This document shows, piece after piece, positions 1,458 through 58,917 of a stretch of DNA of 64,000 bases. Position 1 is the stretch's first letter. Every line of letters starts with the position of its first letter. The notes beneath the pieces are model-generated. The model was not told the DNA's origin and made no database searches. It saw only the letters and a program-made list of their open reading frames with translations. The position numbers and the translations under genes are program-made. The DNA comes from Magnolia sinica. Taxonomy: Eukaryota; Streptophyta; Magnoliopsida; Magnoliales; Magnoliaceae. Where the stretch lies: assembly GCF_029962835.1 (NCBI RefSeq), contig NC_080574.1, positions 20,868,001-20,932,000 of the forward strand, read 5' to 3'.

Positions 1458-1596
1458 TCTCTTCATCAGGTGGGCTCTACTGTCTGTGATTTGTCGGTCG
1501 TGATGCAGAAGGATTTGGCAGCGTGTATGTCGAGTGGCCACAATTGGCCTATTATCCTTTAGCTATTCAGTTGTTGGGACCGGATTCAGTGAGGCC
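1458..1596 (+). repeat. 139-bp direct repeat, left copy
   Basis: This stretch, starting TCTCTTCATCAGG and ending CAGTGAGGCC, recurs at 8424-8562 at a constant offset of 6966 bases, and I see no mismatch by eye. The copies lie immediately outside the two LTRs of the Ty1/copia element. The left copy ends 3 bases before the 5' LTR and the right copy begins 2 bases after the 3' LTR. It is therefore placed like a target-site duplication but is about 28 times longer than the usual 5 bp. Confidence 0.9.
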
Positions 1597-1599
1597 ATG

Positions 1600-2691
1600 T
1601 GTTGCAAAATTTTGATTTTAATAAAATATATTTTAATACTAAAATAATATATAATATACAAAAATTGTTTTGAAAAACACTTTTCTATGGGTTTTTGGGA
1701 ATAGTCCAACATGAAAAGAAAAGAGAAAAAAGCTGGTTTATATGAAGGATGTGAAGTATTATAATATTTACCTACCTAATCCGTGGACTATGGACCTCGT
1801 ACGCGTGCTCTCGCGCTCGGGCCCCGGCACGGGCACGGGCTCGGGCTCGGACTCGGTCTCGGTCTCGAACTCGGTGCGAGGGCATGGGCATGTGAGGCGG
1901 TGTGGCTATAAAGGCGCTAGTGGCGCACCGCACGTCCGCATCGTGTCGCAAGGGTCGCTCTTTCGCGACCTTAAGCGAACCGGAGCGAGACGTGTGCAAC
2001 TAAGTGGCTATGGCGGGTGACTTGTTAGCAGAGAGACTAAAGGACTGGGAGAGAAATCTCTCAATATAAATAGAGGTGAAAAAAGGTCATTCTAAGTGTA
2101 ATTGTTCATGCAGTAATTAGTCAGACCATGCAGAAACTATTGCATAGCTAGCCTCAATAGCTAGAAAACGGCTATTGTTGTCTCACAACAATCGATGCAC
2201 GCTTTAATGGCTCATGCACTGTGATTAGAAAAAAGTCATAAAGCGGCTAGTTTTCCAAAGAAATGGCTTAATGGAATTTAAGTCTCTAGACCATAACCCC
2301 TAGCCACCATAGCCTATGATGGATGGGGTTTCAATCCATCTCAACTCACTCCAACAAACTCATACGAACTAAGACAGTCAGCCCCTTTCCACTCATATAT
2401 TCTAGTGTTTCCAACAACGTAGCAAGGCTTAAACCTTAGTTTGAAGAACAGACCGATGTAGTCTAAGACGGTTCAACCGAACCGATTCTTTGAAGATTTG
2501 AAGTGACTGTAGAAGTCGAAACTACTTTTTCTCTTTTTTCTTCTTCTCTTGGAATTTTTCTTTTCTACTGTAATACCAGAAAGTGTGTAATTGAGTTCTA
2601 TTTGGTGGGCCTTCGTGTTTGCTGTAACGCAGACCCACACCCGGCTCGTCGTATCCTAGAAGTTGTTTGCTTGTAACCTATCGCATACTCA
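1600..2691 (+). repeat. Ty1/copia 5' LTR
   Basis: It pairs with 7315-8422 over both ends. A GC-rich run of GGGCAC/GGGCTC hexamers lies at about 1815-1870, and a TATAAAG box-like string lies near 1909. The segment from about 1865 to 1975 does not align with the matching part of the 3' LTR. Confidence 0.9.
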
Positions 2692-5600
2692 ATTCACTTG
2701 AGTAGGGGCAAATAACGCTTTAAGGACGACATTTCAGACGTGCTTACTGTCCTGATTTCTGATTATTTTGTAATTTTCGGTTTCCACATTATACAGAAAA
2801 ACATTAATCTGTATAATTTGAGACAATCTTAAAGTGTTATTGCGATAGCCGACAGTGTTTCATCTATCAAGTTGATGAATCAGGACTTGATACGTCTTGA
2901 TCGGTTCAATGGAACCAATTTTACAAGATGGCAAGACAAGCTAAAATTTCTTCTGACGGTGCTGAGCATCTACTACATATTAGATCCAAATCTGCAAGCA
3001 CTACCAAAGCATCCGACACAAACACACCTAAATAGGTTGCTGCTCGCACTAAAAGAGCTAAAAACGATCTCTTGTGTCGAGGACACATTCTGAACATGCT
3101 CTTGACTGCCTGTACAATCTGTACTAACAGACATTATCAGTAAAGAAGATCTGAGCAGCTTTAGAGTTCAAATACAAGGCTAAAGAATGAGGAACCAACA
3201 AATTTCTCATCGTCAGGTATTTTAACTTCAACATAGTAGATAACAAACCACTACTGCCCCAAATCTAAAAACTGCAACTAATAGTAAACAAAATCAAAGC
3301 CATCAAAATTGATCTTCCTGAATCATTCCAAGTCGGGGCTATCATCGATGTGGAAAGACTATAGAAAGAAGTTGTTGCATAAAACCGAGGACTACACACT
3401 GGAACAAATTCAGAAACACCTCAGGATTGAGGAAGAATCCCGTAACTGCGATAGAAAAAATGATAACGGGAATACCTCGTCCAAGGTACATGCTGTAGAA
3501 AACACTAATAACAAACATCCCGAGAAGGACGATTCCCTGAAACCTAATAAAGGAAAATTTAAGAAGAACACCCTGAAGAAGAACGGAAAGTTCAAGGGCC
3601 CATGCCATGTCTGTGGAAAAATCGGGCACTATGCTCGAGTATGCTGCTATCGCAAATCCAAAAAAGAGGCAAATGCAGTAGAAGAAGGCGATATTGTGGC
3701 TATGATCACTGAGGTAAATACCATTCAAGGCAAAGTTCCAGGTTGGTGGTATGATACTGCCACTACTGTACATGTGTGCTACTACAAATCAGCCTTCAAA
3801 ACCTATGAGGAATTGACCGATGGTCAAGAAGTCCAAATGGGTAATGAAGTCCGATCGAAGATTGTCGGTAAAGGAGCTGTCGAACTGATATTCACCTCTA
3901 GAAAGAAAGTGATTTTAACTAATGTACTGCACGTCCTAGACATGAGGCGAAACTTAGTTTCTGGGGATCTTCTGGGAAAACAAGGCATACGGGTGGTGTA
4001 TGAGTCAGGTAAACTGATTCTGTCCAAAAATAAAAATTTTGTCGGAAAGGGATATGCTTGTAACGGAATGGTTAAGTTTTCTCTGAATGAAAGTAGCACT
4101 TCTGCGTATATGGTTAAATCCGCTGGACTGTGACATGATAGACTAGCCCATATAGGGTATAGTACCTTGAAGTTCATAGCTAAGAATGGTTTAATCTCAT
4201 GCACGGATAATGAAACCAGAAAATGTGAAGTATGCATACGATCCAAAATGACGAAAAAATCTTTTCCAAGTGTTCAAAGATTGTCTTAAATATTAGATCT
4301 TATGCACAGTGATATCTGTGAATTAAACGACATTCTTACTCGTGGAGGTAAACGGTACTTCATAACCTTTATAGATGATTGCTCTAGATATGTGTATATT
4401 TATTTATTAAAGAGCAAAGATGAAGCATTGAACATGTTTAAAATATATAAAGGTAGAGAATTAACTAAATAAGAAGATAAAAATTCTCTGTAGCGATAGA
4501 AGAGGTGAACACTTCTCCAATGAATTCGATAACTTCTGTAAAAAAACATAGACTAATACATCAATATACTACGTCATACACACCTCAACAAAATGAAATA
4601 GCTGAAAGAAAGAATAGAACATTAGTAGAAATGGTCAATTCAATGCTGATAAGAGTAAAGTTACCACTAAATCTATAGGGAAATGCACTGCTTGCAGCAT
4701 GCCATATAATAAATAGAATTCCATCTAAAAAATATAAAATATCTTCATATGAAACATGAAGAGGTAGAAAACCTAACCTAGGATATCTAAAAGTGTGGGA
4801 GTGTCTTGCATATTGCAGAACCCCTGATCCAAAAGGAACTAAGTTAGGACCAAGAGCTATTAAGTGCACCTTCGTAGGGTATGCACAAAATAGTAAAGCT
4901 TATAGGCTTCTAGACATAGAGTCTAATGCAATAATAAAATCAAGAGATGTTGAGTTCTTTGATAACTCACTATCCTTGGAGTCAAAGGATAATGAAATCC
5001 AAACTCCTAATAGAGAACTAGAAAACATAGCTCCACAGATAGTGGAAGCTCCTATTGAGCCTCATAGGAGTCAAAGGACAAGAATAGAAAAGAGTCTGGG
5101 AGATGACTATATAGACTCACAACGTATCATTTTCCATCTTATAGAAGGAGATAAAGAAAATGTTATAAAAAAATACCTATAGTAATGACTATAGAAGATG
5201 ATCCGAAAACATATAAAGAGGACATATCCTCTAGATACTCAGCTTTCTGGAAAGTAGCTATAAACGATGAAATGGAATCTATACTATCAAATCAAACATG
5301 AGAACTAGTTAACTTACCTCCAGGTTCTAGACCCATAGGTTGTAAGTGGGTATTTAGGAAGAAATATCACACTGATGGGACTATCCAAACCTTTAAAGCT
5401 CGACTAGTAGCTAAGGATTTTAGACAAAAAGAAGGGATATATTACTTTGACACATACTCTCCTGTAGCTAGGATAACATCTATTAGGATATTATTTGCGT
5501 TAGCTTCCATACATTATCTTCACATCCACTAAATGGATGTAAAGACCGCATTCCTGAATGGTGACCTCAATGAGGAAGTATACATGGAACAACCTGAAGG

Positions 5601-7314
5601 TTTCGTTCTACCAAAAATGAAAACAAAGTATGTATATTAGTCAAATCTTTGTATGGATTAAAACAAGCACCAAAACAATGACATGAGAAATTTGATTCCA
5701 AAATACTATCTCATGGTTTCATGCATAATGTAGCTGACAAATGCATATATTCTAAAGTAAATGGTATTTGTATTATTATTATTTGTCTGTATGTTGATGA
5801 CATGTTAATAATAAGTAATAAAATGGAAGGAGTGACTGAAACAAAGAAGTTTCTATCTTCCGTATTTAAAATGAAAGATCTTGGACAAGTTGATATAATT
5901 CATGGTGTCAAAGTTAAAAAATATTGTGGGGGTTATGCTTTGTGTCAAACTCATTATATTGAGAAGATACTAAACAAGTTTAACCATCTAAATATAAAGG
6001 AAGCAAAAACCCCATTTGATCCAAGTATCAAGCTAAAAGAAAATACCGGAAGAACAGTTGCACAATTAGAATATGCGAGTGCTATAAGGAGTCTTATATA
6101 TGCTATGCATTGCACTAGACCTGATATCGTATATGTTGTGAGTAAACTTAGTAGGTTTGCTAGTAACCCCAGTACTGAACACTGGAATGTAATAAGTAGA
6201 GTTATTGGTTACTTAAAAGCAACCAAAGACTTAGGACTATTTTATTCAGAGTTTCCTGTCATATTGGAATGATATACCAATGCGAGCTGGATATCGAGCA
6301 CAGGGAACAACAAGTCTACTACAGGGTGGGTATTCACCCTAGGAGGTGCAGCTGTATCTTGGGGATCCAAGAAAAAAACTTGCATAACATACTCGACTAT
6401 GAAGTCTGAATTTATAGCCCTGACTGCAATAGGCAAAGAGGCTGAGTGGCTAAGGAATCTTCTATTGGAAATTCATTTCTGTATAAAGCCTATATCGGCT
6501 GTGTCACTACATTGTGATAGTGAAGCTACATTAGCTAGAGGCTATAGCGGCACTTATAATGGTAAGTCTAGACATATTAGTCTTCGACATGATTATGTCA
6601 GACAATTGATTCAAAAGGGAATCATTGTTATTTCTTATGTGAAATCAAGCAATAATCTGGTAGATCCTTTCACTAAACCTCTACCGAGAGAGGTAATAAA
6701 GGCTACTTTTAAAGGGATGGGGTTGAAGCTCTTCGACCAAAGTTCCACAAGTGATGGTAACCTAACCTAAAGTCAGAAAATTTCTAATTTTGGGTTTAAT
6801 GGGTAAGAACAAGTCACTGATCTGTGGAAAGTTTTCAGCAGTAAATTATAAAACTTAATCCATAATAGATAAGTGTTGAGCGTTACGATAGAGGGTTGAG
6901 TCTTAGAACTCTTAATGAAATCCAGTCTATAAGGACAAGTATCTTATAGTAACGGAGACACTGGAAGGATTTCACCTATATGAATGTAGAGATGGTGCCG
7001 TCTCTCATGAGAGTTAGGAGTTTTCTCTCGGGATCGTTTACGAATTAGGATAAACACATGGCCATTAATTGTGTTGAGCAAGATTGTGGGAACTCTAACA
7101 AACACATAGCGAATATATGTGTGGTATTTTCAATTCTGTTATCTAAGAATAACTGGTTCAAAGTTGCGGCTACTAGTCATTTTGACAGAGTTTTGAAATA
7201 CTTACACTAAAGAAAGATTAAAATCGAAAGATATCTTTCTTTATGCATATAAGCTGATTATTCTGGCAGTATTGTTTAACCGAGAAAATAATTTTATAAA
7301 ATCAAGTGGGGCAT

Positions 7315-8422
7315 TGTTGCAAAAATATTGATTTTAATAAAATATATTTTATTACTAAAATAATATATAATATACAAAAGTTGTTTTGAAAAACACTTTT
7401 CTGTGGGTTTTTGGGAATAGTCCCACATGGAAAAGAGAAGAGAAAAAACTATGGTTTATATGAAGGATGTGGAGTATTATAATATTTATCTACTTAGTTC
7501 ATGGACTATGGACCTTAGGTGTTCCAGTGCGTACGCACTGGAACACCCGCGTGCGCGCTCGCGCTCGGGCACGGGCTCGGGCTCGGGCTCAGGCTCAGTC
7601 AGGCCGTTAAACAGTATCATGTTTGTAAATCCAGGTAAAAACTGGGGTCTGATATGCAATATTTGACCCTCAACAGAACCGGAGCGAGACGTGTGCGAGT
7701 CGCGGTGCGACTAAGTGGCTATGGCGGGTGGCTGGTTAGTAGAGAGACTAAAGGACTGAGAGAGAAATCTCTCAATATAAATAGAGGGACTGAAAAGAGC
7801 TGCTGCAGCTAATGTTGAGCCATTAGTGCGGTCCATTGTAATGCTGCATGGCTAGCCCAATGCTAGAAAATGGCTAGCCAGCTCTCACAACAGTCAACAT
7901 GCAGCAGCTTAATGGCCCATGCACAACAGTTAGAAAACGGTCATAAAACGGCTAGTTTTCCAACAACTAGAAATGGCTTAATGGAATTTAAGTCTCTAGA
8001 CCATAACCCCCCAGCCACCATAGCCTATAAAAGGAGGACCTGGATGGGTTTCCAATCCATCTCAACTCACTCTAGCAAACTCATACGAACTAAGATAGCC
8101 AGCCTCTATTCACTCATATATTCTAGTGTTTCCAGCAACGTAGCAAGGCTTAAACCTTAGCTTTAAGAACAGACTAGCGGTGTGGTCTAGGACGGTTCAA
8201 CTGAACCAGTGGCTGAAGATTTGAATTGACCTGTGTAGAAGTTGAAACTACTTTTTCTCTTCTTTTCTTATTCTCTTGGGATTTTTGCCTTTTTACTGTA
8301 ATACTGCCAGAAAATGTATAATTGAGTTCTATTTGGTAGGCCTTCGTGTTTGCTGAACGCAGACCCACTCCAGGCTCGTCGTATCCTAGAAGCTGTTTGT
8401 CTGTAACCTATCAGCATACTCA
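7315..8422 (+). repeat. Ty1/copia 3' LTR
   Basis: It aligns with the 5' LTR at both ends. Its middle (about 7600-7675) is a different sequence of about 75 bp (beginning near CAGGCCGTTAAACAG) where the 5' LTR has a longer GC-rich block. A TATAAAAGG string near 8025 is absent from the aligned part of the 5' LTR. The GGGCTC hexamer run is present at about 7560-7600. Confidence 0.88.
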
Positions 8423-8423
8423 A

Positions 8424-8562
8424 TCTCTTCATCAGGTGGGCTCTACTGTCTGTGATTTGTCGGTCGTGATGCAGAAGGATTTGGCAGCGTGTATGTCGAG
8501 TGGCCACAATTGGCCTATTATCCTTTAGCTATTCAGTTGTTGGGACCGGATTCAGTGAGGCC
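8424..8562 (+). repeat. 139-bp direct repeat, right copy
   Basis: By eye this is a perfect copy of 1458-1596, directly after the 3' LTR. The sequence past 8562 differs from what follows the left copy, where the 5' LTR starts, so the repeat ends there. Confidence 0.9.
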
Positions 8563-9070
8563 GTGATGGGTGAGATTTGATTGGTCCAGCTCAGGTTTGA
8601 CATCGGCGCACAGAACCGGATTAGGTGAGGGTCGAAAAAACAGAGTTCATTTGAGACTGATGTGGTGAGATTTGATTGGTGGAACCTACGTCTAACCGTG
8701 GCCCTAACTCGGTGAGATTTGATTGGTCTAACCCATGTGTGACACCGGACAAGTTATTGTCCGGAGCTAATTTCAAACATGTTTTGCCTTGCTCATTTTT
8801 TATGACAGGACATAGCTAAATCAAAAATCACCATCTTGACCTCACCGAGCTGTGTGTTTCCATAACCTCAGCGGTCCAATTCCGTGTTGAGTATGTATTT
8901 GACAAAACTACTTCCAAATATGCTTTGCATGACCCTATCTCTAACAGTGACATATAGCCCAATTAGTCATCAGTATATCATGGCTTCACTGAACTCCATG
9001 TTTCTCTAGCCTCACTAAATCTAGCTCCAAATACATGTGGCTCACTTGAGGTTCAAGCAGCTTGCCTGAT
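8563..9070. repeat. intergenic DNA with degenerate ~47-bp repeats
   Basis: The 17-mer GGTGAGATTTGATTGGT occurs at 8569, 8664 and 8711, that is at spacings of 95 and 47 bases, with CGGATT-type text between copies. This suggests a degenerate short-period tandem repeat with one unit unrecognisable. No gene was seen in the rest of the stretch. Confidence 0.55.
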
Positions 9071-9630
9071 TAGAGCTGTACATGAACCGAGTTAGCTCGG
9101 TTAGATCGCTTGACTCGACTCAAAAAAGCTTGATTCGACTTGGTTCAAAACAGAGCTGATTTTTTTAGCTCGAAAAATTTTCTAGCCGAGTTCAAGTGTG
9201 CTCGAGCTCGACTTGACTCGGACCGATCCCCAACTCAGATCAAATCAGTTCGGTGACTCGGTTATTATGATATTGATGTTGCTCAGCAAGTATTTGATGA
9301 AATGACTCAACGAAGTGTTAGCTGGTGGCAATGAAGGTATGAATATGAAATATTTTGATTTTTATGTTGCCTATTAAGTGTTTGATGAAATACTTGTAAA
9401 CCGATGTTGCTGCTTTACATTCTGTGAGAAATTGAATGTGCACTTTATGTGTTTGATAAAATGCATGGAGGCTTTATCTTGACTTAAATCAGCCCAAGCT
9501 GTGCACCGAACCATGCTAAGCTGGCAAGTTAGGCTCGAGGACTAAGCCAAGTTGAACCTAGTTTGAGCTGAGGTCAGCTAGTGCCCGAGCCGAGCCGAGT
9601 TGTGTCAAGCTCAACTCATGTACACCTCTA
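9071..9630. mobile_element. non-autonomous hAT element with PPR-like passenger sequence
   Basis: The ends are short inverted repeats: TAGAGCTGTACATGA at 9071 and its near-perfect inverse ending ACCTCTA at 9630. The flanking octamers TGCCTGAT (9063-9070) and TGCTTGAT (9631-9638) match at 7 of 8 positions. An 8-bp target duplication with this terminal style indicates the hAT superfamily. The subterminal regions are dense in CTCGA/GAGCC motifs, a usual hAT arrangement for transposase binding. No transposase is encoded. The centre translates in pieces to pentatricopeptide-repeat-like text: DIDVAQQVFDEMTQRSV at 9269-9319, then VFDEILVN near 9378-9402 and EIECALYVFDKM at 9428-9463, in more than one frame and with stops. 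These look like captured exon fragments. A related copy lies at about 54617-55260. Confidence 0.8.
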
Positions 9631-9959
9631 TGCTTGATGATAGATGTTGTCGAACCCTCCATGATTCATATGTTTTATCCATACTTGCCATCTAATTTTT
9701 CAAGCCATTTGAATGCATAGACACAAAAATATAGCAGATCCAAAGCTCCAGTAGATCACATCACAAGTAGGAAGAGCAATTAAGCACTCACCATTATAAA
9801 CATTTTGATATATATATAGTATATATATATATATATTTTCCTTCATCTGAGTGTGTGCAGCCTTATTAAATGTTAAGGTGGGCCTTAAAATTTTTTTACC
9901 AACGGTTATCATGTCATTGTCCTTACTTTTTTACCACCCTTTCTACCGTCAATCACAAG
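9631..9959. other. intergenic DNA with TA microsatellite
   Basis: No gene was seen. An interrupted (TA)n tract lies at about 9808-9837. The remainder is AT-rich. Confidence 0.6.
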
Positions 9960-10403
9960 CTCGAAATAGGCTGGAGCTCGTTGGGCGTACCGTGATGCGT
10001 GGGTTTATCAACACCATCTATTCATTTTAAAATATCAGTCCTGTAACAATACAAAAAATAAGTCAGTTACAAGGTTCAAGTGGCCACGCACTGGGGATTA
10101 ATTAACTACCATTGAAAACTTTTTTGTAGCCATGAAAGTTTTTGATCAAGCTGATATTTGTGTTTTTCCTTCATCCAGGTCTATATGACCTTATAATCAG
10201 GTTGGATGGCTAATAAACATCACAGTGAGTCCGAGGAAAGTTTTAACGGTTCGGGTCATTATCACTGCTGCTTTACGGTGTAGTCCACCTGACCAGTGGA
10301 TCCGTCTTATTTTTGAGTTGGTGTCTTAAAATGATATGGTAAAATGGATAAACGGTGTAGATAAACCCATACGTCACCGTGAGCTGCTCAAAGCCCCAGC
10401 GTT
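9960..10403. mobile_element. foldback MITE, family M1, copy A
   Basis: The two ends are imperfect inverted repeats: GTACCGTGATGCGTGGGTTT near 9988 against AAACCCATACGTCACCG near 10363, extending outward through GGCTGGAGCTC / GCTCAAAGCCCCAG. The interior has the family phrases 'cattgaaaactt', 'ccttcatccaggtct' and 'gtagtccacctga'. The ends are approximate and no target duplication was recognised. Confidence 0.55.
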
Positions 10404-11717: not shown

Positions 11718-12534
11718 ATCTAGGCTGTTCATATGTTTCTCTATCTTATTTTGGGGCATGATATCGTGAACGCCTCCCTTTACGCGAGCATAGCATTGCC
11801 CTCACATCCCTAGCTTCGGTATTGATTTATTGATGTAATCATAGTATCTTATTGACCCAGATGTAAAAATACATTTTATTTGGAGTCGTCACTAATCAAA
11901 TAAAACTCAAAATATGTAGACGGGTAGAAACTGTAAAATTGCTTAAGGATCAAGAAATCATGATATTCTCCAACTCAAATGACTCATATTGTCAGTTTAT
12001 GACCGTAAATTCTAAGTAAGCGCTTCAGTGACAAAAAATAAAAAAATAAAAGAATGAAGGAAATGATTAGATACCCTTTTTCACCAACATAATGTGCAAT
12101 GTCTACTTTACAAGATTTAGCGTTTTTGAGAATTCTACATAATTTTAGTATTTTTATATTTAACTCATAAGGACAGTGCAGACAAAAATAAGAAAAAGAA
12201 AACTATCTAATCTTACATCACTTAGCTAAGTAGCCCCTGATAGGTGAATAAAGTGAAAATAGAGTGCATAAAATAAAATGCGATCTCGCCTTATAATCAC
12301 ATCTTCACTTGATCTGGTGTTATACAATGGAATCCATTAGGTGCTTTCAAGATGTACTGAGAGTGCTACATGTTTGACCTACCTGGATTTCTAATAATTT
12401 ATAAATCCATATGAGATAAATTTATTGAAGTCTAGATGAACCAAAATGACTGACGTATCTTTGTTTTAGATGGAGTGTCCACGAGTACCAAAAATGAAGT
12501 AAATAAAATTTCAAATGCACTGTGCCACGGGAAA
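11718..12534. other. AT-rich intergenic DNA, no gene seen
   Basis: No coding frame, RNA gene or clear repeat ends were recognised. Short A-rich runs occur near 12036-12050. Confidence 0.55.
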
Positions 12535-12850
12535 CAGACAGTGGTCATTGAATGCCAACCATTAAAAACTTCCTAAGGTCCTATGCAATGTTTGTTGACC
12601 ATCCAACCTATTAATAAGGTCACATAGATGAAAGGAAAACAACAAATATTAGTTTCATCAAAAAAAAAAAAAAGAATCGTGGCTCACAAAAGATTTTTAA
12701 TGATCAATATTAAACATGGTTTCAGTGGTGTGGTCCAATTGAAATTTTTATTTCATTTATTTTTTTATCATGCTTTAAAATAAACTAAAAAAACGAATGG
12801 ACAAGGCGGGCACACAATGCAAAGTCCTTGCCACATCGCCAACCCAAAGT
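12535..12850. mobile_element. MITE family M1, copy C, diverged or partial
   Basis: It carries the interior family phrases in altered form (inverted 'cacatagatgaaagg' and 'gtggtccaattgaaattt') and an end resembling 'ggacggcgtgg'. An internal A-run lies at 12661-12674. The terminal inverted repeats are too eroded to place. Confidence 0.4.
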
Positions 12851-13904: not shown

Positions 13905-14396
13905 CAGAACACCCCAGATCCAGCCAGGTGCGGCGACTCTGATCGTGGGACCCACTTCGATGTATGCGTTGTATATCTACGCCGTCCATCTATTTTTTCA
14001 GCTCATTTTATAGCATTTTCTAACAAATGAGGTAGATCCAAATTTCAGGTGAACCACACGGTAGGGATTGAATTCCTACCATTAAAAACTTCTTGATCCA
14101 CAAAAGTTTTGTATCAATTTGATGTTTATGTTTCCCGTCATTCAGGTCTGTGTGGCATTATGAACAGGTTGGATGACATATAAACATTACATTGGGCCTC
14201 AGAAAGTTTTTAATGGCCGGCATTCAATTATCACTGTTTTCCTTTGGTGCAGTTGACGTGAGATTTGGATCTTCTTTATTTTTAGGACCATGCTATAAAA
14301 TGAGCTAAAAAACCGGATGGACGGCGTGGATATACAAAAAATACATCAAGATGGCCCTTGGTCAGGGTCGTACCTACCTGGCCGGATAATCCGCCC
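13905..14396. mobile_element. foldback MITE, family M1, copy D
   Basis: The long inverted ends are clear. ACGCCGTCCATCTATTTTTT near 13979 pairs with ACCGGATGGACGGCGTGG near 14312, and outward TCCAGCCAGGTGCGG (near 13919) pairs with the inverse of CCTACCTGGCCGGA (near 14376). The arms exceed 60 bases with mismatches. The centre carries the family phrases. It has no coding capacity. Confidence 0.7.
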
Positions 14397-16383: not shown

Positions 16384-19372
16384 TGTAACGCCCTAGAAAT
16401 CGGGGGTTGCGCATACGCTCGACTCTCAAGTTCCCGAGTGTCACTTATAATTGATTCGTTAATATACGTTTAAATCCAGTTTAGTTGCGCGAACCTGGAA
16501 ATTCCTGGAACATGAGGCATCACACACACAAGCTTGCTGAAATGAAAGGGAATAATAGGTATATATACAGATCCAAAAGAATATAACGGGTCGCCTAAGG
16601 CGTCGCCCAACAAAATCACAAAAAGAATGATATGCCCAAAAGAATAAGGCTGAGCCCACACTTAGTGATCCAATCCCACCTCTCTAGCTGACGGAGAGCC
16701 GTCCATCAACTGGAAGTAGGACAACTCGTCCTCCTCCTCGCAGCTCGCCTCGCTAGGCTCCTCATGCCTTGAGTCACCTGCATCTATAAACGGGTCTGGT
16801 TGGTGTTTTAAAACACCGTCCCAGAGTGAGAGTGAGTGATCAACTCAGTGGGTGCTATTAGTCTCAAGTTATAACAGGCATCAATTATAATATGAACTTA
16901 ATGAAAAACATTTAATCATAAAAACTTAACTAATCTTATTAATGCGCATGCATGATAGATGATATGATGCGTGCCCTCTCCACAACGCTCCCTCGAGCGA
17001 CTCTATCTAACGATCGCGTATGACAACACTCCCTCAGAGCGACCTCGACTGCCGAGTCGCCACCCTAACTAGTGCGATATGATGCGATGGTATTAGCCGA
17101 GTTCTTAGTTAAGTCCGTTCATCCAGCAGGTTGGAAAATCTGATACACCTCACATATCAATGCCCTTAACTGGTTACGAGGCAAGACTCCCCAATGTGTG
17201 AGGCCGAGACCCCACGGTTCTTCATCCCGTCGGGTTCCTCATCCCCGACTTCAAGTACATGAGGAGTGCCGAGAGAAAGGGATCGCTCGCGGTCACTACG
17301 AGGACGCGCGGCACCCCAGCATAGGTCGACAGCTCAGACACAGTGTCTCATTCCACTATGCCCGGCTCACGAGGCGATGGACCAGTTTTACTGTAGATAT
17401 CGATGGGCTACAACGGTTATAGGGTATTCCAGGTTCCATACAGAGGTGAGCAAACAGGGTTAGCAAAAAAGGTTGGTCAGTAAGTAGGCAAGATCGCATG
17501 AGTCAGGTGAGCGTGAGACGAGTGACATTGGGCACAAGAGACCCACGTAGTCGAACTACTGCTACTCGTACACACCCGCCCAAAACCACGGCTCTAGCCA
17601 TAGCATAGTCCTACCGATGGGACTACCGTCTCTCCTTATGGTCCTGACCAACCCAAGAGGGTGAGGGTGATCCATAACATGCCAACTATCCAGGTTATCA
17701 ACTAGTATAACATATCATATACTCATGCATCTCAACTATACACAACGGATACTCCTACAAGCAAGCAAACATTATCAAGAAACAAAGTGCATGTGAGGGT
17801 GTGGGTTTGTGAGGAAGTTAAACACTTCCTCCATCTTAAGAAATCATATGCACAAGGGGAATAAACCATACTCACAATGAAACACCACATATGAGGAAAA
17901 AGGACTAAACAAACATGAGCAATGAATCATCCATACATAATATCATGTGAGAGTCAAGATCAACATAACTTTGAGAACTAAACATGCAAATTCATACAAT
18001 TCTAACAAACATACAATTCCTAAGTTCTCTCTAAATTCTCTAATACAACACCCAACACACAAAATCATTAAACACATACTATAATTGATTTTAGGCCACC
18101 TAAGAATAATAGTCTGCACCTATGGATTGTTGGAGGTTCGGAAAACGACCTAGGAATGAGGGCTTTTGGGTCGATCGGCCGGAATCCCTAGAACAAGCTC
18201 TTGCATGTTAGAATTTCATGCAATCTCTTCTTAATATATAGATTTTCAAGAAGAAGGGGTAAATGATCTTACCTAGAAGAACCACGGACGATTGTTGAAG
18301 TTATGGTGTAAAGTTTCACTTGGAGAAAGGATAGGGAGTTGAAAGGGTTGATTCCCTTGGGCCCCACCTCGATCTAAGGTCCACCTTAGCTCTCCTTCAC
18401 TCTCTCTTTCTTCTCTCCTTGCTTTCTAACTCTCTCCTTACTTCCTTGGTAATGGTAGTTGTGGTGAGAGTTATGAGATAAGGCTAGGACTTTATTTCCT
18501 AGAGTTGGGCCAAGTGGCCTTAAGTTTTAATGAATTCCCACAATGGCCCTCTAGGACTCCTTATTGACTTTGGGGTGGACCCAACACCCCCTAGGCCACC
18601 AAATTTGGTGAGTAGGTGCCTCATGACCCGATAAGGGGTCATGCAAAGTTTGGGGGCAAACGGATCAACAAAGGTGGGGTTTGATCATACGGTTTCGATC
18701 TTTAAATGACCCTTTGGGGACCATTTCGGTTGTTGGGGTAGTTCTGGAGGCCCCTTGGACATAAAACTTATAGAATAGGTGGTTCATGGCTCGATGAAGG
18801 GCCATGCAAAGTTTGGGAACGATCGGATATGGGGTTTGGTCGTACGGGTCTGATTTGCGATCAACGGTTACCGTGCCACGATAAGGTCCCAGATTTTGTG
18901 GACGGGCGAAGGACAGTACATTAGACCTTCACCAAAAATTTAGAAGAAATCCGACAGTTGAAAAGCCCGAAGTCTCAGTTTCATTTACCAGTGCCAGATT
19001 TCAACTCTAGCCTTGGGTGGGTTGACAAGTGCTGCCGGAACGGTACGAAAAATTAACTTTTGGGTTTCTAATGAGTCCGTGGTTCGCGATGGACCACAAG
19101 CCCAGTGAGATCTATGGTTCCCTAAATTTTATAATTTTCCGACCTTCCTGCGTCGCGGTATAGCCCGTACAAGCGGATGCTAAGTGTATCCGACTATCTG
19201 GCTTAGTGGCCCGCACTAGGCCCTATCATGACCCGTCTGGTCTACTCTAATGGGAAAATCCTAGGTTAATTTAACTCATGGTACCCCACCGTGAGGGGTT
19301 TAAATGAATGGTCCTGCGGAAAATCTTACGTGGATGTCTCAGGACACTGTGCTGGTTGGACAGGATGTTACA
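16384..19372 (-). repeat. gypsy 3' LTR (left, 2.99 kb)
   Basis: It opens TGTAACGCCCTAGAAATCGG and closes GATGTTACA, giving the inverted TGTAAC/GTTACA ends. It matches the right LTR over most of its length except the middle, about 17100-17650. A CT-rich block with short direct repeats lies near 18380-18440. Confidence 0.93.
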
Positions 19373-22300
19373 CTGTTCTAAGTTAGTTTACTTTTGTTGG
19401 TTTCTCCTAGTTGTATTGCTGAAGCAGGCTTGGGTAATGCTTACGGACTTCCACTTCTGTCTCCCAAGTGGCCTCTTCTTCATCATGATAGGTTCATAGT
19501 ACCTTGACTAATGGGATGACCTTGTTGCGTAGAATCTGCTCCTTTCTATCAAGTATTCGAGTGGGTCGAAGAATGCATGTGACATTTTTTTTAAGCTCCA
19601 CATGCTCCCACTTGATGATATGCAAAGGATCGGAGACGTACTTCTTCAACATCGATACGTGGAAGACGTTATGCACTCCGGCGAGAGGGGTGGGTAGGGC
19701 CAAGCGATAGGCAACCGCACCCACCCGGTCCAAAATCTGGAAGGGCCCGATGAACCTTGGCGCGAGCTTTCCTTTCTTGCTGAATCATAAAACACCCTTC
19801 ATTGGGGAGATTTTGAGAAACACATGATCCCCAACTTCAAATTCCAAGTCCCTTCGTCGAGTATCGGCATAACTTTTTTTATCTGCTTTGAGTCGTTAAG
19901 AGACGGCGTCGGATAATTCCAATCTTCTCAATCATGACTCGCACCAAATCAGGCCCTAGCAAACCTTTCTCGCCAATTTCCTCCCAACAATGGGGGGCTC
20001 GGCATGGACGCCCATACAAAGCCTCGTAATGCGTCATACTGATGCTAGCCTGGAAGCTATTATTGTAGGCGAACTCGGCATACGGAGACAGTCATCCCAA
20101 CTCTCCTGAAAGTCAAGTACGCAAGCTCGCAACATGTCTTCCAATATCTGGTTCACCCGCTCAGTTTGCCCATCTGTCTGTGGGTGGAAGGCGGTACTAA
20201 ACTTCAACTTCACTCCCATGGCCTCTTGGATGCGAGCCCAGAAGATCGACGTGAATCGTGTGTCCCACTCCGACATAATCTCCAACGGGACGCCATGGAG
20301 CTGCATTATCTCCTTGATATACAGCTTGGCTAAATCATCGGCGGAGCTAGAAGTCTTGATTGGCAGGAAATGGGCTGATTTGGTTAGCCTGTCCACAATC
20401 ACCCATATCGAATCGTGCCCCTTTCTAGTCTTGGGCAAACCAAAAATGAAGTCCATAGATATGAAGTCTCACTTCCATTCTGCTATGGGTATGGGCCACA
20501 AAAGGCCTGGTGGTCGGCGGTGTTAGGCCTTGACCTGTTGGCACGTGAGGCATCAGGACACATACTCTGCTATTTCCTTCTTCATGTTGTCCCACCAATA
20601 ATTTCACTTCAGATCCTGGTACATTTTTATGTTACCAGGATGCATCACCAACTTGGAGTTGTGAGCAGCATTTAAAACTTCTTCCCATAGTCCTTTAAGG
20701 TTTGGAACACATAGATGGCCTCGGTACCGCAATCACCCATCGGTACCTATCCTCCACCCAGACCCCACATCATTCCTTGCTTTCTCTTTTATCTTCTTCA
20801 ACAACTCATCGCCCTCCTGAGCTTCAATGATTTCGCTGTTAATCATTGACTGGGCTTGAATGTGGGCTACGACCTCATATGATTCCTCCACCGTTAGCTT
20901 CATGTCAAAGTCTTGCGCAAACTCCACCATGTCCCACTCTCTCACCATTAGCGGTGCCGCAAATTCGATTACCTTTTTGTGACTCAATGCGTCCGCCACC
21001 AAATTTGCCTTGCCAAGGTGATACAAGACGTCGAACTTAAAGTCCTTCAACATCTCTATCTAGCGACGTTGTCTCATATTCAGGTCCTTCTGGGTAAAGA
21101 TGTATTTGAGGCTCTTATGATCAGAAAAGAGCTCAAACTCCTCACCATAGAGATAGTGTCTCCATATCTTCAATGCGAAGACTATCGCCGCAAGCTCAAG
21201 GTCATATGTAAGGTAGTTTTCTTCATGTTTCCTTACTTGTCGAGAGGCATAAGCAATTGCCTTATCTTTTTGCATGAGTACACAACCCAAGTCCACTCGA
21301 GAGGCGTCTGTATAGACAGTGTACTTGACCCCTTGCTCAGGCAGTACATGCACACGTGCCGACGTCAGTTTATCTTTCAACTCTTGGAAGGCCCTTCGCC
21401 TTCTCATTCCAGGCAAATTTGAGGTCCTTCCGGGTCAACTGGGATAGCGGCCGAGCTATTTTTGAAAAATCATAATGAATCTTCGATAATAGCCGGCGAG
21501 ACCGAGAAAACTTCTCACTTCCGTGATCGACTTTGGTTGCTTCCAATCCTACACGGTCGCCGCCTTGGCAAGATCCACAGATATTCCTTCTTTGGACACT
21601 ACATGTCCCAAAAATTTAACCTCCTCCCAGAAGTCGCATTTCCTGAATTGCGCAAACAACTGATTTTTCTTAAGTATTTTTAGGACCGCTGTCAAATGTT
21701 CTTCATGTTCCTCACGGCTCTTTGAATAAATCAATATATCGTCGATGAACATGATGACGAATCTATATATGAACGGCCTAAAGACCCTATTCATGAGGTC
21801 CATGAATACCGCTGGAGCATTGGTGAGCCCGAACGACATAAATAGGAACTCATAATGGCCAAAACAGGTTCTGAAAACCGTTTCTGTATATCCTCGTCCC
21901 TAACTCGCAACTGATGGTACCCTTTTTGCAGATCGATCTTTGAGAAATATTGAGCACCTCTCAGCTGGTCGAACAAATCATCAATTCTGGGCAAGGGGTA
22001 TTTGTTTCGAACTGTCACTTGGTTCAACTTTCTGTAATCTACACATAAGCGTAATGAGCTGTCCTTCTTCTTCACAAATAGGACCGGGGCTCCCCAGGGT
22101 GATACGCTGGGTCGGATGAAGCCTGACTCTAGCAATTTGTCGATTTGAGATCGCAGTTCTTCCATCTCACATGAGGGCATGAGGTAAATAGGCAAAGAGA
22201 TGGGCTTGACACCCGGAGTCAGATCGATCATGAAGTTTATCTCACGTTGAGGGGGAAGTCCAGGTATGGCTCTAAATACGTCCTCAAAGTCTTGGACCAC

Positions 22301-24403
22301 GGGTGTGCATGTTATTGATGGCCCATCATAACCGTCCTCTAATGAAGCATAACACAAAATCCTATGATTGTGGCTAACCTGGACTGGGAATATGAGGGAA
22401 GTGTCGTCGTCTTCGTATATTTTCACTGTCAGTGTGTCACAGTCAATTTCTACATTCATCATGGTCAACCAATCCATGCCCAGGATGATGTCATAATGGA
22501 AGATCTTGGTCACCATCAAATCCACAAGCACCACCTTGCATCCCAAGTCAATGGGGCAATCACAACATATCTTTGTTGCCTTTGAGAAAGTACCGGCGGC
22601 AGCAATGATCTTTACTCTTACGAAAGGAGTAGGGTGCAGTCTTAGACGCTTGACGGTTGCATGCGATATAGGAGAAGCAGTAGATCCAGTGTCCACTAGC
22701 AGAAATATGGGAGTACCTTATATGTGGGCCGTCACCTCAAAGGTCGTAGGAATGGAGATGACTGCATCCTGGCCCTTGGCCACTAAGGCATGTACCCGTG
22801 CCTGCTGTGGAAAGTTCGACCGCTGCATAGGCCATTGTGGCGGCCTAACTTGAGGTGGCGGTGGACGGCGAAACTGTTGACTAGGCCGCATGGCCTATAG
22901 GGGCGAAATCTGCAGTGCCTGCTGAGGGGGTCTATTATTGCGCTGAGGTGGCGTGAAGCCAAGATCCCTCATCCCCGTGAACCAATACGACTCCGAGTGG
23001 CCAGTCCTCCTACAATAACCGCATATCTGTGAAGGTCGTGTAGAGGGAGCAGGTGTAACAACTACTATGGGCGGAGAGTGCGGGCGCGGTCTTTTCCCTG
23101 CAAAAGAAGAGGATGGCCCCTCTATTCTGCTTCACAGCCCCAATTGTGAACGGTTCTGTGCGACTCGCTCCTCATCCTGTTCCGCCCGTATGAACATCTC
23201 GATAAGCTCGGCGTAGGTCTGGATGCTCGCACAACACATCTTTGAGCGGATGTCACTCCTCAAACCCACTGAAAATCGTCTCTTCTTAATCGCCTCGTTG
23301 GCAATCATTTCGGAAGCGTAGTGCGACAATTCTGTAAATCAATTTTCGTATTGCGCTACAGTCATTCCACCTTGTTGGAGGCGGAGGAATTCATTCTCCC
23401 TCTCATGCTAGTACGTCTGAGGGAGATATTTCTCATTGAAGCGGCCTTCAAACTCCTCCACGTCCACACGTGGTTCTCAGGGATGGAGCGGAGGACGCTC
23501 TCCCACCACAGGTCCGCCTCTTTCTCAAAGAGGTAGGAAAGGAGTTCAACGTTCTCTACTTCTGTACAATGGAGAGGCCAAAGCAGTTTGGTGACTCGGT
23601 TGAGCTAGTATTCCGCTTCCTCGGGGCGGTGGGTGCCGGCAAACGTAGGCGGCCTATACCGCTGGAACTGCTCAAATAGGGTGCTTATGCTAGTCGCGGA
23701 CGAGGTTAAGCCGGGTGCTTCTGGTTGTGGCATGCCCAAATTCTGGGCCAAGGCTCTCATCACAGTGGCCATCATTTGTTGTTGATGTTGCATATTTAAG
23801 GCCATCATTTGTTATTGTTGTTGTATGAGAAGCAACATCTGGCCCATTTAGTCCATGGCCTATGGCGGAGGAGGTACGGGTGTCACGGCTTGCAATGGCG
23901 GTGCATTCAGGGCCGCCTCTTGGGCAGTACTACCCGTATTTTGGGAACCGCTAGCCCCTTATGTGCCTTGTTGTTCATCGAGGAGCTGGTCCTTCTCTAC
24001 CATGCCACCATGAGGTAGGCGAACGAATCGACCCTCCACACGCGGAGGCATTTCCTAGAAGAATGTTCTCGAATAGGTTAGGTACTAGAACATTTCTCAT
24101 ACCAAGGTCATGAATAAATACACCGGATCTATATATATCCTATTTATGAACATAACCAACCACACACACAAGCATTCTCATGATGGCAAGAACATTTCAA
24201 GGCAACCTATACATTCACATTGATTTTAAAATGCCATTGACATGGCCTGTTAGATGTTACAGCATGGATTACACAGATTACTAGATATGCTAAACGAAAG
24301 GAAAATACAAGCAAATTAAGCAAAGTCCTAAGCATCCTTCAGTACATGGGATTAGACTTAAACAACTCAAAGCAAACTACTAATCATCAGTAAGGTGGTG
24401 CTA

Positions 24404-25615
24404 CTACTCGTCTGTGTCGGGTGAAAGCAGGGGTGCTACTTCCCCCTTGCTGCAGCAGATCAGGGCCTTTATGGCTCGATACATCTTCTTGTTCCACTTC
24501 TCCTGTTTCGCTTGGTTCGCCTCAATCATTGCTTGGTTCTCCTCGATTCTAGTCATCCTAGTGTCGAGTGTTTCCAAGCGCCCAATTACGTCTGGAACGG
24601 CAAGGGATCCACCGTCAACTCCTTCGGCTCTCTCAGCTTCGCCTCCGCCTTCATTTTCATTCTCGCTCTTGTTGTCCCCATCACTTTCCTCTTCTTCTTC
24701 GCCAACATCCTCATATTGGTCGATGCGGGCTTGTCGCTGCTTGGGGCCTATTCCCATCCTATTCAATATGTCATCACCCAGTAGTTGAGTCGGTATTGGA
24801 TTTCCATCCGATCCGCCTACTCCATATTGTTGAGCCAACTGACAGACTAGGCAACTAAATGAAAGGCATGTACTCTTCCTTGTAGATCTCGCGGTCCGCA
24901 CAATCTGGTGGAGTACTATGCTGGGGAGGCACACATCTGCCCCCTGTCCCACCTGATATAGGCACTCTACCATATAGCGGGAGCACTCAGAGTGGTTCAG
25001 TAACCTCAAATTTTAGGCGTAGATGCGGTGAAACACTCGGTACTCCGGCTTAAGGTCGGTTGAGCTCAGACCGACCTCTTGCTTCCCCAGTTTCCACTGG
25101 GCAACCTGTCCACACAAAAAATAGGTCTGCTCCTTACGGGCTTGACTCATATCCAAATCTCTCTTGTAGATCTGCACCTCCCCTAGTGGCACTCTCAATA
25201 CGCTGGCAATGACCTCCACCCCAATTGGGAACCTCTTGCCTCCCACTACTAGATCAAAGCCCAGTGGCTCGAATTGAGGGTTTCTAATTCGCAAGTAGAA
25301 GGCCCTGGCTTGACCTTCATCTGCTTGGGAGTCTCTATAGAATACTGGACCACATCCCTTCTTTATAAGCCCACCGAGTAAGGCGTACTTATCGAACAGA
25401 TGCTCTTCCACGGAGGCTTCGAAGGCGACACTGCATATGCGAAAATTTCTCATATCCTCAACGGGTGGTCGGGACTGCAGGAGCCCCTTGAGAGTTGTTC
25501 TTACGCTTGGATCGGACTTCTGCTACTTCCTTCCCCTTTGGATCGACTTTTTGCTTGCTTCGCCTCTCTCGGCTCGGCCCCGACTCGGCAGTTGCCGGTC
25601 TTTTCTTCCCCATAA
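24404..25615 (-). other. extra reading-frame region upstream of gypsy gag
   Basis: This region lies between the primer-binding site and gag of the gypsy element. It encodes a basic, lysine-rich start, a central region with text such as LGGLIKKGCGPVFYRDS and FPIGVEVIASVLRVPLGE, then CLPSIVLHQIVRTARSTRKS, an acidic stretch rich in E and D, and a coiled-coil-like tail (LDTRMTRIEENQAMIE). The middle resembles what Pfam calls a putative plant transposon protein (Transposase_32 type). I infer this from memory, without a search. It is broken like the rest of the element. Confidence 0.55.
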
Positions 25616-25699
25616 GTGAAAGAATCACCGGGATGGAGAAAAAGGCGGTGACGGTAGCTGGAAATGCTATTTCTTTGGCAAGGAGATGGATGGTTATTG

Positions 25700-26470
25700 A
25701 GAATGTGTAAATAGGGAAATGGGTTTGTTAAAGGGGGTTTTGGGGAAATGAGGATGGAATGGGTTTTGGGAGTTTGAAGTTGAGTATGGTCTTGGAATTG
25801 GGAAGAATGGGTTGAATGTGGGTGGTTTTGTTGGGTTTGAAGGAATGAACTTGAAGATGGGTTGAAGATATGGGATTTGAGAAGGGTTTTGAGATGGTTT
25901 TATGAGGAATGGAGTTGGAGAATGGGAATTGATATGTGAGTTTGAAGAAATGGGTAAGAACGGTTTTGAGATGGGTTTTGGGAATAGAGTTTGGAGGTGA
26001 GGGAGAGAGAGTGTGAGTTGGATATGGGTTTTAGAATGGGTTTGTTGGAGGTAGGTTGTTGAGATTTAGGAATGGGATTGAGAAAGGGGAAGATGATGGG
26101 TTTGAGGAGATGTGATTAGAAGAAAATGATGGGTTAGAAGAAAGGCTAAGGGAATGGGTTTGGGAAAGGCTTCCCAAGGGTTTTGAAGCAAGAGAAGGGG
26201 AGTGAAGTGGGAGGAAATGAAGTCAATGGTGTTTATTTGTAAGGGAAGTGGACCCCACACACTTGCATGTTGAAAAGGGGAGGGATTTTCAGATTTTCGG
26301 GCCTGGGCATGGCCACGTCGGCACTCTGGAGGTCCTGGCGTGGGCACGCCAACGCTCTAGAGATTTCAGCGTGGGGAGTGGGCGTGGGCACACCGGTGGG
26401 TGCGGGCAGCGTGCATGGGCTGGGCGTGGGCAGCGTGCGTGGGCTGGGCATGGCCACGTTGGGGCTTTGT
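25700..26470. repeat. low-complexity tracts in gypsy leader
   Basis: At 25700-26200 the plus strand is a long run of GGGTTTTG/GAATGGG-type text. At about 26335-26460 GTGGGC/GGGCAGCGTG units repeat. These lie between the extra frame and the 5' LTR and are non-coding. Confidence 0.7.
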
Positions 26471-27020
26471 TGGGGTCCCGATGTTTTTCAATTTTTCGGT
26501 GCCAGTAAGGCCCCCCCTAGGACATGCCATATATGAATTTAGAGTAGGAGAAGCCAATCTACGCAATGGGCCTAGTGGTTTCGCGAGATTTCTCCCGGTT
26601 CGTGGCCAAAATCCCAGGTTTCCTCCGTTCCACTAATCTTAGTAAAATCTCACTCACTCCTAAGTCCCTATCCCCAATGGATCGAATCTAATAACTTGAC
26701 CAGATACTAGTTCATTCGCACGTGGATGTTAGCTTCGACCTTCAAATTGTTCAATCTCCGGCTCGTTCCTATCCATGGGTAGAGATCTGGTACGACTCCC
26801 GGACCCATTTTCTAACGTCGCTACCTACTCTTGCTACCAATCCAAATTCCTAGGAAGTCTTGCCGTCCATCTAAGATTTTCGGTTCGGGGTATGGTATGG
26901 ATCCTAATGTCTTAAATTTCTGTTGCGTTTTTCTAATACGTATCCTCTCAAGTCAGCGGACGCATAGTGAGTTTATGACCCATGACCCAATTAATTTCAA
27001 ACCATACTTTGATACCAACT

Positions 27021-30000: not shown

Positions 30001-30750
30001 TAGGTGCCTCATGACCCGATAAGGGGTCATGCAAAGTTTGGGGGCCAACGAAGGTGGGGTTTGATCATACGGTTCCGATCTTTAAATGGCCCTTTGGGGA
30101 CTATTCAGGTTGTTGAGGCAGTTTTGGTGGCCCCTTGGATATAAAACTTATAGAATAGGTGGTTCATGGCCCAATGGAGGGCCATGCAAAGTTCGGAAAC
30201 AATCGGATATGGGGTTTGGTCGTACGGGTCCGATTTGCGATCAACGGTTACCGTGCCACGATCAGCTTCCAGATTTTGTGGACGGGCGAAGGACAATACA
30301 TTAGACCTTTACTGAAAATTTAGAAGAAATCCGACTGCTGAAAAGCTCGGAGTCTCAGTTTTATTTACCAGTGCCAGATTTCTACTCTGGCCTTGGGTGG
30401 GTTGACAAGTGCTGCTGGAACGGCACGGAAAATTTTCTGGGTGTCTAATGAGTTCGTGGTCCATGATGGACCACAAGCCCAGTGAGATCTATGGGTCCCT
30501 AAATTTTTATAATTTTCCGACCTTCCCATGTCGCGGTATAGTCCGTACGGGCTGATGCTAAGCGTATCCGGCCATCTGGCTTGACGGCCCGTACTAGGCC
30601 CTATCATGACCTGTCTGGTTTACTCTAATGGGCTAATCCTAGGTTAATTTAACTTGTGGTACCCCACCACGAGTGGTTTAATCGAATGGTCCTGCGAAAA
30701 ATCTTACGTGGACGCCCCAGGACACTGTGCTTGTTGGACGAGACGTTACA
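27021..30750 (-). repeat. gypsy 5' LTR (right, 3.73 kb, internally rearranged)
   Basis: It opens TGTAACGCCCTGAAAATCGG and closes GACGTTACA. From 29076 to the end it follows the left LTR cleanly from its 'ccaggttatcaac' point on. Between about 27950 and 29075 it instead carries a mixed version of the same LTR parts, so material equivalent to left-LTR 17690-18390 appears twice, once garbled and once clean. This accounts for about 740 extra bases. Confidence 0.85.
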
Positions 30751-51463: not shown

Positions 51464-51899
51464 GGGAACGGATTAGGTGTTACCCTTACCGTGTGGGGTC
51501 CACCTTGATGAATGTGTTGTATATCCATGCCATCCATCCAGTTTTCCAGTGCATTTTAGGGCGTGATCATTAAAAACTTTGTGGACAACAAAAGTTTTGG
51601 ATCAAGCCGATCTCTGTATTTTCCCTCCATCCAGGTCTGGTTGACCTTATCAGCAGGTTGGACGACAAATGAACATTATGATGAGCCCGAGGAAGTTTTT
51701 AATGGTGGGTGTTCATTCACCACTATTGCCTATGCTGTGGTCCACCTGAGATTTGGATCTGCTTAATTTTCGGGATCATGCCCCCAAATGGCCTGGAAAA
51801 ATAGATAAACAGGGTGGATATACAACAAATCATCAAGTTGGGCCCCACGGCAAGGGTAACACCCATAAGGTGTCACCCGGGTAACATCTAATCCACGGC
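51464..51899. mobile_element. Mutator-like foldback MITE, family M1, copy I
   Basis: The best-preserved family member. It is flanked by a perfect 10-base direct repeat CCACTGCTGG (51454-51463 and 51900-51909), close to the 9-10-bp duplication of Mutator-like elements. The arms are inverted: GGATTAGGTGTTACCC on the left and GGGTAACATCTAATCC on the right, continuing through 'gtggggtccaccttgatg' and 'catcaagttgggccccac'. The right arm contains about 23 extra bases because the GGTAACACC motif is repeated. It has no coding capacity. Confidence 0.75.
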
Positions 51900-53598: not shown

Positions 53599-54616
53599 TT
53601 TTATTTACATTTTGGTGGTTTTTTTTTTTTTTTTTGGGTACCTGTTTTCTCATGTGGGCTACCTCTCGATAAAAGGATTGTAGCCGCTCAGCTTGCATTT
53701 TTATCCTCCTTTCATGTTTTTGGGTTTTGTCATCAGTGTTTTATTATTATTATTATTATTATTTTTTTCCTGTTTTTGTCTTTAGCTCTGTGGTATTTCG
53801 AAATGGATGGGGGGCTCTTTCAATCCCGCTTCGTTACTTTCTTAGGTTCGCCACCACGAAAGATTCTGCCTGTCCAGTTTGGTATGTTCTTTTTTTTGGT
53901 CTGTCATTCTTTTGAAATAATTATATTTTTAAACTCGTGTCCTTAATGTCATTTCACATTTTTTAAGACGAAAATGGCCCTATTGTATTGGCAACGAGCC
54001 TCGTACTATTTAACGGTGCTATGTGTGGAGGATGATTTGCTAAGGTGCTAGAAACATTCATGATTGATTCACTAAAAAAGGAAAAATTCTATTCTAACAA
54101 TTGATAAAATTAGATAAGTCTTACATTATGAACTCTCAATTCAAACATTGAAATTCTTTTGGATAGCCGTGATGAATCTGGATCACCTCATTTTCTCATT
54201 CTAACTTTCTAGAGGTCAGAGACCTTATGTATGGTCCCTCCCTCACAATACCTAATTGTGGGTATGAAAGATCATTTTAGTGACTAAGGAATCAGAATCT
54301 TATTACAAATGAATTTCTGCAAATTCTTTTCTTTTCTAGAAACCACTCGTATGGGGTCATTTCTGTTTTTCTTAGAGCCTGTTTGGTGTGCATCGTTCCT
54401 ATATCTATATGGGAATAACATGTTAATGTCTCTTGTTATGGGGGCCCACATGTATGCACAACGCATGCACGTGCAGACAATTATATGGGCCCAATCATTA
54501 AAAAAACCTTTACATTAGAGTAAGTTATCATATGTGAGAAAAGAGAGTTCATTTAAGACTTGGTTTCTAAGGTGATATATGAGATCGTAAGTTTATAAAT
54601 AAAAGATACTTTTGCC
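53599..54616. other. intergenic DNA, no gene seen
   Basis: T-rich tracts lie at 53619-53636 and an ATT microsatellite at 53741-53767. No gene or repeat end was recognised. Confidence 0.55.
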
Positions 54617-55260
54617 TTGAGCTGTGCACGAACGGGGTTAGCTCGATTAACTCTCTCGACTCAACTTGAAAAAGTTCGATTTGACTTGGTTCAAAATTGA
54701 GTTCGAGCCGAGTCGAGTTGATTTTTAGAGTTTGAAAAACTTTCGAGCCAAAGTTCGAGCTTGAATCAACTCAGATCGAACCTCAACTCAAATCGAACTA
54801 GTTCAGTGACTCGGTTATTTTGATATTGATGTTGCTCACCAAGTGTTTGATGAAATGACTTAATGAAGTGTTGCTTCTGATTGCTACATTCTCTATGGGA
54901 TCGGCCAGTGGCGAGGAAAGTATGGATATGAAACAAATCACTACAAAAAAAACAAACATTACATAGTAAAACTAATCTTGGATCTTGATTTTGTCGCTCC
55001 CTACTGAGTGTTTGATGAAATACTTGTAAACTGTTGTTGCTATTTTGCAAACTATGAGAAATTAAAGGTGCACTTCATGTGTTTGAGAAAATGCCGCACA
55101 GGCTCGAACTGGCTTGAGTTGCTGACCGAACCGAGCCAAGCTGGCTAGTCAAGCTTGAGGACCGACCCGAGCTGAGTTCGAGCTAGGGTCAACTAGTGGC
55201 CGAGCCAAGTCAAGCTGTGCCAAGCTCAACTCGATTCAACTCGAGTTTTAGCTTTACTCT
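54617..55260. mobile_element. second hAT-type element with PPR-like passenger sequence
   Basis: Homologous to 9071-9630. It starts TTGAGCTGTGCACGAAC, has CTCGA-rich subterminal regions, and shares the centre. Pieces of PPR-like protein are visible: DIDVAHQVFDEMT near 54822, VFDEILVN near 55008 and EIKGALHVFEKMPH near 55054, again with stops and frame changes. It retains about 45 bases after the first motif that the other copy lacks. Terminal repeats are eroded and no target duplication is clear. Confidence 0.65.
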
Positions 55261-55392
55261 TGGCCTACTTCATTCAGGCTCAAAACATGTAGGGCTATTT
55301 ATTTCTAAGTACAAACATTGAGAGAAATGTGAGAGAAGTGAGCCAATGTCGTATACCATGTAGGGATGCAAGAGCAATGGTCAAAGTTGTTA

Positions 55393-58384: not shown

Positions 58385-58917
<533 letters not shown>

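Follow-up and report, generated by a model that had tools for sequence, protein, structure and literature searches.

Origin of the element at 9071–9630

The 560-bp element located at 9071–9630 of the 64,000-nucleotide stretch of Magnolia sinica DNA analysed here (the window) raises the question of whether a very small hAT-type transposon has taken up part of a pentatricopeptide repeat (PPR) gene, and whether a second element in the window carries the same fragment. In the following, the first element is referred to as E1 and the second as E2. Both are probably old copies of one small, MITE-sized, non-autonomous Pack-hAT, the ancestor of which took up approximately 200–280 bp of a plant PPR gene, in a fragment that was broken before the two copies split.

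Ends and extent of the two elements

The original prediction had assigned hAT-type ends and an 8-bp target duplication to E1, and both assignments were borne out (Table 1). The element is bounded by 15-bp inverted repeats with 14 of 15 positions paired and is flanked by TGCCTGAT and TGCTTGAT, equal at seven of eight positions. The left repeat starts with TAGAG, in keeping with the YARNG with which hAT-type terminal inverted repeats begin. A search for the E1-type end pattern with up to three mismatches gave four matches in the window, and at least four were also found in 15 of 100 shuffles. The loose pattern by itself carries no weight; the weight is carried by the opposed pair, with zero and one mismatch, together with the duplication. 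A further five end-like sites (two to three mismatches) were rejected, as all of them lie on the minus strand of the window and none has a plus-strand partner of its own. The density of CTCGA/GAGCC-like words in the left arm of E1 is among the highest in the window, and that at 7401–7800 is likewise high.

The second copy had been placed at 54617–55260. The copy proved to be real and its start at 54617 stands, but its right end is better set at 55256, where AGCTTTA is read against AGCTCTA and the flanks CTTTTGCC and CTCTTGGC agree at six of eight positions, a duplication to be read with the knowledge that this end was picked by seeking such a flank fit. With the end placed at 55260, the flanks do not match. 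The left end of E2 starts with TTGAG, which departs from YARNG, and erosion has blurred the right end; the assignment of E2 comes from its alignment to E1. The two elements are short (560 bp for E1 and 640 bp for E2) and non-coding, as is the case for MITEs with inverted ends, and six-frame translation of both is interrupted by stops.

Table 1. Coordinates of the features of E1 and E2 in the window
Feature	Position	Strand	Basis
E1 left target duplication TGCCTGAT	9063..9070	.	7/8 equal to 9631-9638
E1 left terminal inverted repeat TAGAGCTGTACATGA	9071..9085	+	14/15 complementary to 9616-9630
E1 left subterminal arm, CTCGA/GAGCC-like words abundant	9086..9262	+	arm-to-arm inverted repeats; word density; PPR profile <0
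E1 passenger, PPR-like, boundaries approximate	9263..9464	+	common to E2; PPR profile 14.0 bits over 9263-9486
E1 PPR-like unit 1, DIDVAQQVFDEMTQRSVSWWQ	9269..9331	+	translation, Pfam, PDB matches, PPR profile
E1 PPR-like unit 2 (DFYVAY, stop, VFDEILVN), frame differs from unit 1	9357..9401	+	
E1 PPR-like unit 3, EIECALYVFDKM	9428..9463	+	signature; best match of block 9351-9486, 5.8 bits
E1 right subterminal arm	9465..9615	+	alignment to E2; arm-to-arm inverted repeats; PPR profile <0
E1 right terminal inverted repeat	9616..9630	-	partner of 9071-9085
E1 right target duplication TGCTTGAT	9631..9638	.	7/8 equal to 9063-9070
E2 left target duplication CTTTTGCC	54609..54616	.	6/8 equal to 55257-55264
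E2 left end and arm	54617..54815	+	alignment to E1
E2 passenger	54816..55094	+	alignment to E1, window blastn, PPR profile, signature
E2 PPR-like unit 1	54822-54857	+	within E2 passenger
E2 PPR-like unit 2	around 55008	+	within E2 passenger
E2 PPR-like unit 3	55058-55093	+	within E2 passenger
E2 right arm and right end (eroded)	55095..55256	+	alignment to E1, end comparison
E2 right target duplication CTCTTGGC	55257..55264	.	6/8 equal to 54609-54616

A broken passenger common to both copies

Alignment of E1 with E2 gave 78.0% identity over 523 aligned bases. Between arms rich in CTCGA words, both elements contain a common passenger, approximately 200 bp long in the first and 280 bp in the second, which is colinear in the two copies and has common junctions, the flanks of the elements being different. 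The plus strand of the passenger reads, in pieces, DIDVA[QH]QVFDEM, VFDEILVN and EI[EK][CG]AL[YH]VF[DE]KM. The peptides anticipated at the centre of E1, DIDVAQQVFDEMTQRSV, VFDEILVN and EIECALYVFDKM, are indeed found on this strand, spread over two frames and separated by stops, and the passenger foreseen in E2 is likewise present, with DIDVAHQVFDEMT and EIKGALHVFEKMPH read from a segment that aligns to that of E1.

Units 1 and 2 form a direct repeat of approximately 41 bp in E1 (80% over 41 bp, 9351–9391 versus 9263–9303) and are similarly related in E2 (75% over 40 bp), while unit 2 of E1 and unit 1 of E2 are 85% alike. Such an internal repeat fits a repeat-gene donor, and a local duplication would give the same look. 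The units are spaced by 88 and 71 bp in E1 and by 165 and 71 bp in E2; as intact PPR repeats have a spacing of 93 or 105 bp, indels must be assumed. The 71-bp spacing between units 2 and 3, which is no multiple of three and shifts the frame, is identical in both copies; in each, a stop immediately precedes the VFDE of unit 2, and unit 3 has a TGA directly ahead of it. In combination, the shared junctions, the 71-bp spacing and the stops therefore indicate a single fragment that was broken before E1 and E2 split, and for these two copies they uphold the claim that capture was earlier than copying.

Other differences are private to one copy. Two stops follow EMT in E2, where E1 reads TQRSV, and E2 contains stretches of 30 and 47 bp that E1 may have lost or E2 may have gained. 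The K2P distance between the copies is 0.27 overall, with values of 0.28 for the left arm, 0.19 for the passenger and 0.42 for the right arm. CpG sites are involved in 15 of 41 differences in the left arm, 12 of 41 in the right arm and 5 of 33 in the passenger; the contrast between arms and passenger may be due in part to quicker decay of CpG sites and is not taken as a sign of selection.

That both copies already carry the same broken fragment is also consistent with the segment being the old interior of a larger hAT lineage, captured earlier, of which the E1/E2 type would be a deletion derivative that itself captured nothing; grapevine hATs with gene fragments as well as transposase are reported in the available part of PMC2528002. 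However, a blastn search of the window with both elements returned no third copy and no larger relative, all other matches being of at most 58 bases, and we regard an origin of this kind as unlikely.

PPR likeness of the passenger

The likeness of the passenger to PPR sequence was tested directly with a profile for which a single synthetic protein supplied three consensus-like repeats, dinucleotide shuffles serving as control. The E1 passenger (9263–9486) scored 14.0 bits, a value reached by none of 2000 shuffles (largest 6.3), and the E2 passenger scored 7.4 bits, again reached by none of 2000 shuffles, with a margin of 0.1 bit to the largest (7.3). The best of 652 other, overlapping blocks of the window scored 3.7 bits, and the arms of the elements gave plain scores below zero. 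The unit-1 block on its own outscored all of 3000 shuffles in E1 (17.2 bits) and in E2 (9.0 bits), as did the unit 2–3 block of E2 (12.2 bits; 23 residues ending with EIKGALHVFEKM and the next two). The unit 2–3 block of E1 (9351–9486) scored 5.8 bits, a weak pass, since 4 of 3000 shuffles did at least as well. The signature [ILV]..A..[VLI]F[DEK][EK]M, which was defined with the peptides already in view, has four occurrences in the six-frame translation of the window, all within E1 and E2, and none in 300 shuffled windows. A 58-bp match of unit 3 at 62711–62654 (69%), from which the signature is absent, was taken as chance.

The comparison with Pfam was less clear. Matches were obtained for two of eight peptides in a first set, both containing unit 1 of E1 (PPR_1 12.4 bits, E 0.13, cut-off 23.8; PPR_2 11.9 bits, E 0.26, cut-off 30), and in a second set a PPR match was obtained for one of eight, a merged reading (PPR_2 14.1 bits against a cut-off of 30). 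Written with X at its stops, the peptide of the merged reading matched nothing, and for the E2 peptide in that form no Pfam match was obtained; no match of the passenger peptides reached the curated cut-off of PPR_1 or PPR_2. Because one of two reversed control peptides matched an unrelated family at 12.6 bits, the Pfam scores alone are not decisive. The check put forward with the original prediction, i.e. translation and search against these two families, had a mixed outcome: the signal is above background by profile and signature, but every Pfam score is below cut-off.

Searches of the PDB gave a similar picture. For the unit-1 peptide, seven of eight matches were either PPR proteins or designed solenoids of PPR-like type, with four of the seven representing variants of a single design. 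The matches of a longer E2 peptide with X at the stops were a PPR chain (E 0.013) and a pair of crystallins. A profile of six peptides matched 29 chains (12 PPR, 14 leucine-rich-repeat by name, 3 others), with a PPR-DYW protein as the best match (4.7e-9) and a leucine-rich-repeat protein as the second (1.1e-5); E-values against repeat proteins are inflated, since many weak stretches are summed. Judged against the consensus sequences of the two families, the I..A part, which both copies have in units 1 and 3, is taken to favour PPR over leucine-rich repeats.

A likeness arising by chance, in what would then be an anonymous transposon interior, could account for single Pfam scores below cut-off, and for VFDK-like letters drawing leucine-rich-repeat chains as well (14 of the 29). 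Yet it would also have to account for passenger scores matched neither by any shuffle nor by any other window block, for the separate passes of the unit 1 and unit 2–3 parts, and for a signature that shuffled windows lack, and it is considered quite improbable. The PPR likeness of the passenger is above chance. By its sequence the passenger appears to be a decayed PPR fragment, which is no PPR domain by the Pfam cut-offs. The signal resides in the passenger and not in the arms; the host gene sequence inside the ends, characteristic of Pack-TYPE elements, is recognized by likeness only.

Proposed course of capture and decay

An ancestral element with hAT ends would thus have acquired approximately 200–280 bp of a plant PPR gene, which we guess, from the solved chains that ranked first, to have been of the PLS type. 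The acquisition may have occurred via aberrant repair or, as modelled for Pack-TYPE elements in the consulted text of PMC8903248, by neighbouring insertions being mobilised together. The element would have been moved by the transposase of a full hAT elsewhere. A single capture would have come first, and the element would then have transposed to two or more sites that differ in their flanks. The copies would then have decayed separately, E2 gaining its private stops and eroded right end and the two coming to differ by the two stretches described above. No protein product is expected from either copy. Pattern scans of viral contigs for the passenger and for the ends gave no matches in either case; the single match in a scan of prokaryote contigs, in Streptomyces, was taken as chance.

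A role of the element in supplying small RNAs that silence PPR genes is very improbable: a plant miRNA targeting PPR mRNAs exists in rice (osa-miR1425; PMC2607281, in the part available) and the strand folds beat shuffles (z −6.5 for E1 with 100 shuffles, −3.4 for E2 with 20), but the predicted fold is no single long hairpin (33 arm-to-arm pairs in E1, 24 in E2), most passenger bases are predicted to be open or paired inside the passenger, and the passenger K2P of 0.19 between the copies makes a near-perfect match to a donor mRNA doubtful. An effect of E1 or E2 on PPR genes through small RNAs is possible, albeit unsupported. A large family of MITE-sized hATs with a fixed PPR passenger, present in many copies and feeding small RNAs against a PPR clade, would be a long shot.

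Relation to known elements

Gene fragments within plant hATs were described in grapevine in 2008 by Benjak et al., and in rice and maize in 2022 by Gisby and Catoni. The Pack-hATs of rice and maize resemble E1 and E2 in their hAT ends, 8-bp target duplication, host coding fragment and lack of transposase (PMC8903248, text available); E1 and E2 differ in measuring only 560–640 bp and in that their fragment is old, broken and known by its PPR likeness. A term search for PPR or pentatricopeptide found no mention in the main text of that article. The Hatvine-6 elements of grapevine are likewise hATs with host gene sequence, transduplicated in their case, but have a common transposase coding sequence and variable interiors, whereas E1 and E2 are tiny and carry the same passenger in both (PMC2528002, in the part available). 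The same portion of PMC2528002 describes a PPR gene fragment in the grapevine element Cactavine-5, for which an antisense effect on PPR genes was suggested. Cactavine-5 is similar to E1 and E2 in having a PPR passenger in two copies, but it is a CACTA element, with the fragment downstream of the transposase frame, and not a hAT.

The grapevine, rice and maize elements, so far as these texts describe them (PMC2528002, PMC8903248), weaken the claim that host-gene capture is little described for tiny hATs. Carriage of gene fragments by hATs is already known in plants, and E1 and E2 add one more probable case. A PPR passenger in a hAT or MITE was found neither in the titles listed nor in the consulted text of PMC2528002, PMC8903248 and PMC2607281, although one may still be in print, and four forms of the terminal letters retrieved only papers unrelated to transposons by title. 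E1 and E2 show, in elements of very small size, the likely capture of host-gene sequence by a hAT, and that a PPR-like fragment was carried along in transposition when it was already broken; their sequences are handles with which to find the family and the donor, and the accepted picture is unchanged.

Other features of the window

Copia-like frames (gag, Pol_BBD, RVT_2) lie between repeated blocks at 1458–8565, and E1 begins approximately 500 bp beyond this region. The blocks (1588–2693 and 7305–8424, 78% over 1161; 1458–1599 and 8424–8565, 99% over 142) stand in swapped order on either side, and therefore do not constitute a simple LTR pair. At 16384–30750, repeated blocks that are approximately 91% alike (29072–30750 with 17687–19372 and 27021–27732 with 16384–17095) enclose frames for a protease and a reverse transcriptase as well as two Transposase_32 matches below the cut-off; the region is perhaps a large Gypsy-type element. 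The scan covered 10 of the 38 long frames of the window and gave Copia- and Gypsy-like retrotransposon matches together with two sub-cut-off matches to 'Putative plant transposon protein'.

Three self-reverse-complementary stretches, at 13918–14387, 32151–32433 and 58596–58878 (alignments of 507, 299 and 286 positions, 66–73%), are likely foldback MITEs, and relatives of the first are located at 10053–10366, 12490–12628 and 51568–51849. A tRNA-Arg gene (anticodon TCG) is found at 53525–53598, approximately 1 kb ahead of E2, and a tandem array with a period of 168 bp occupies 46341–46891 (3.3 copies, 90% matches).
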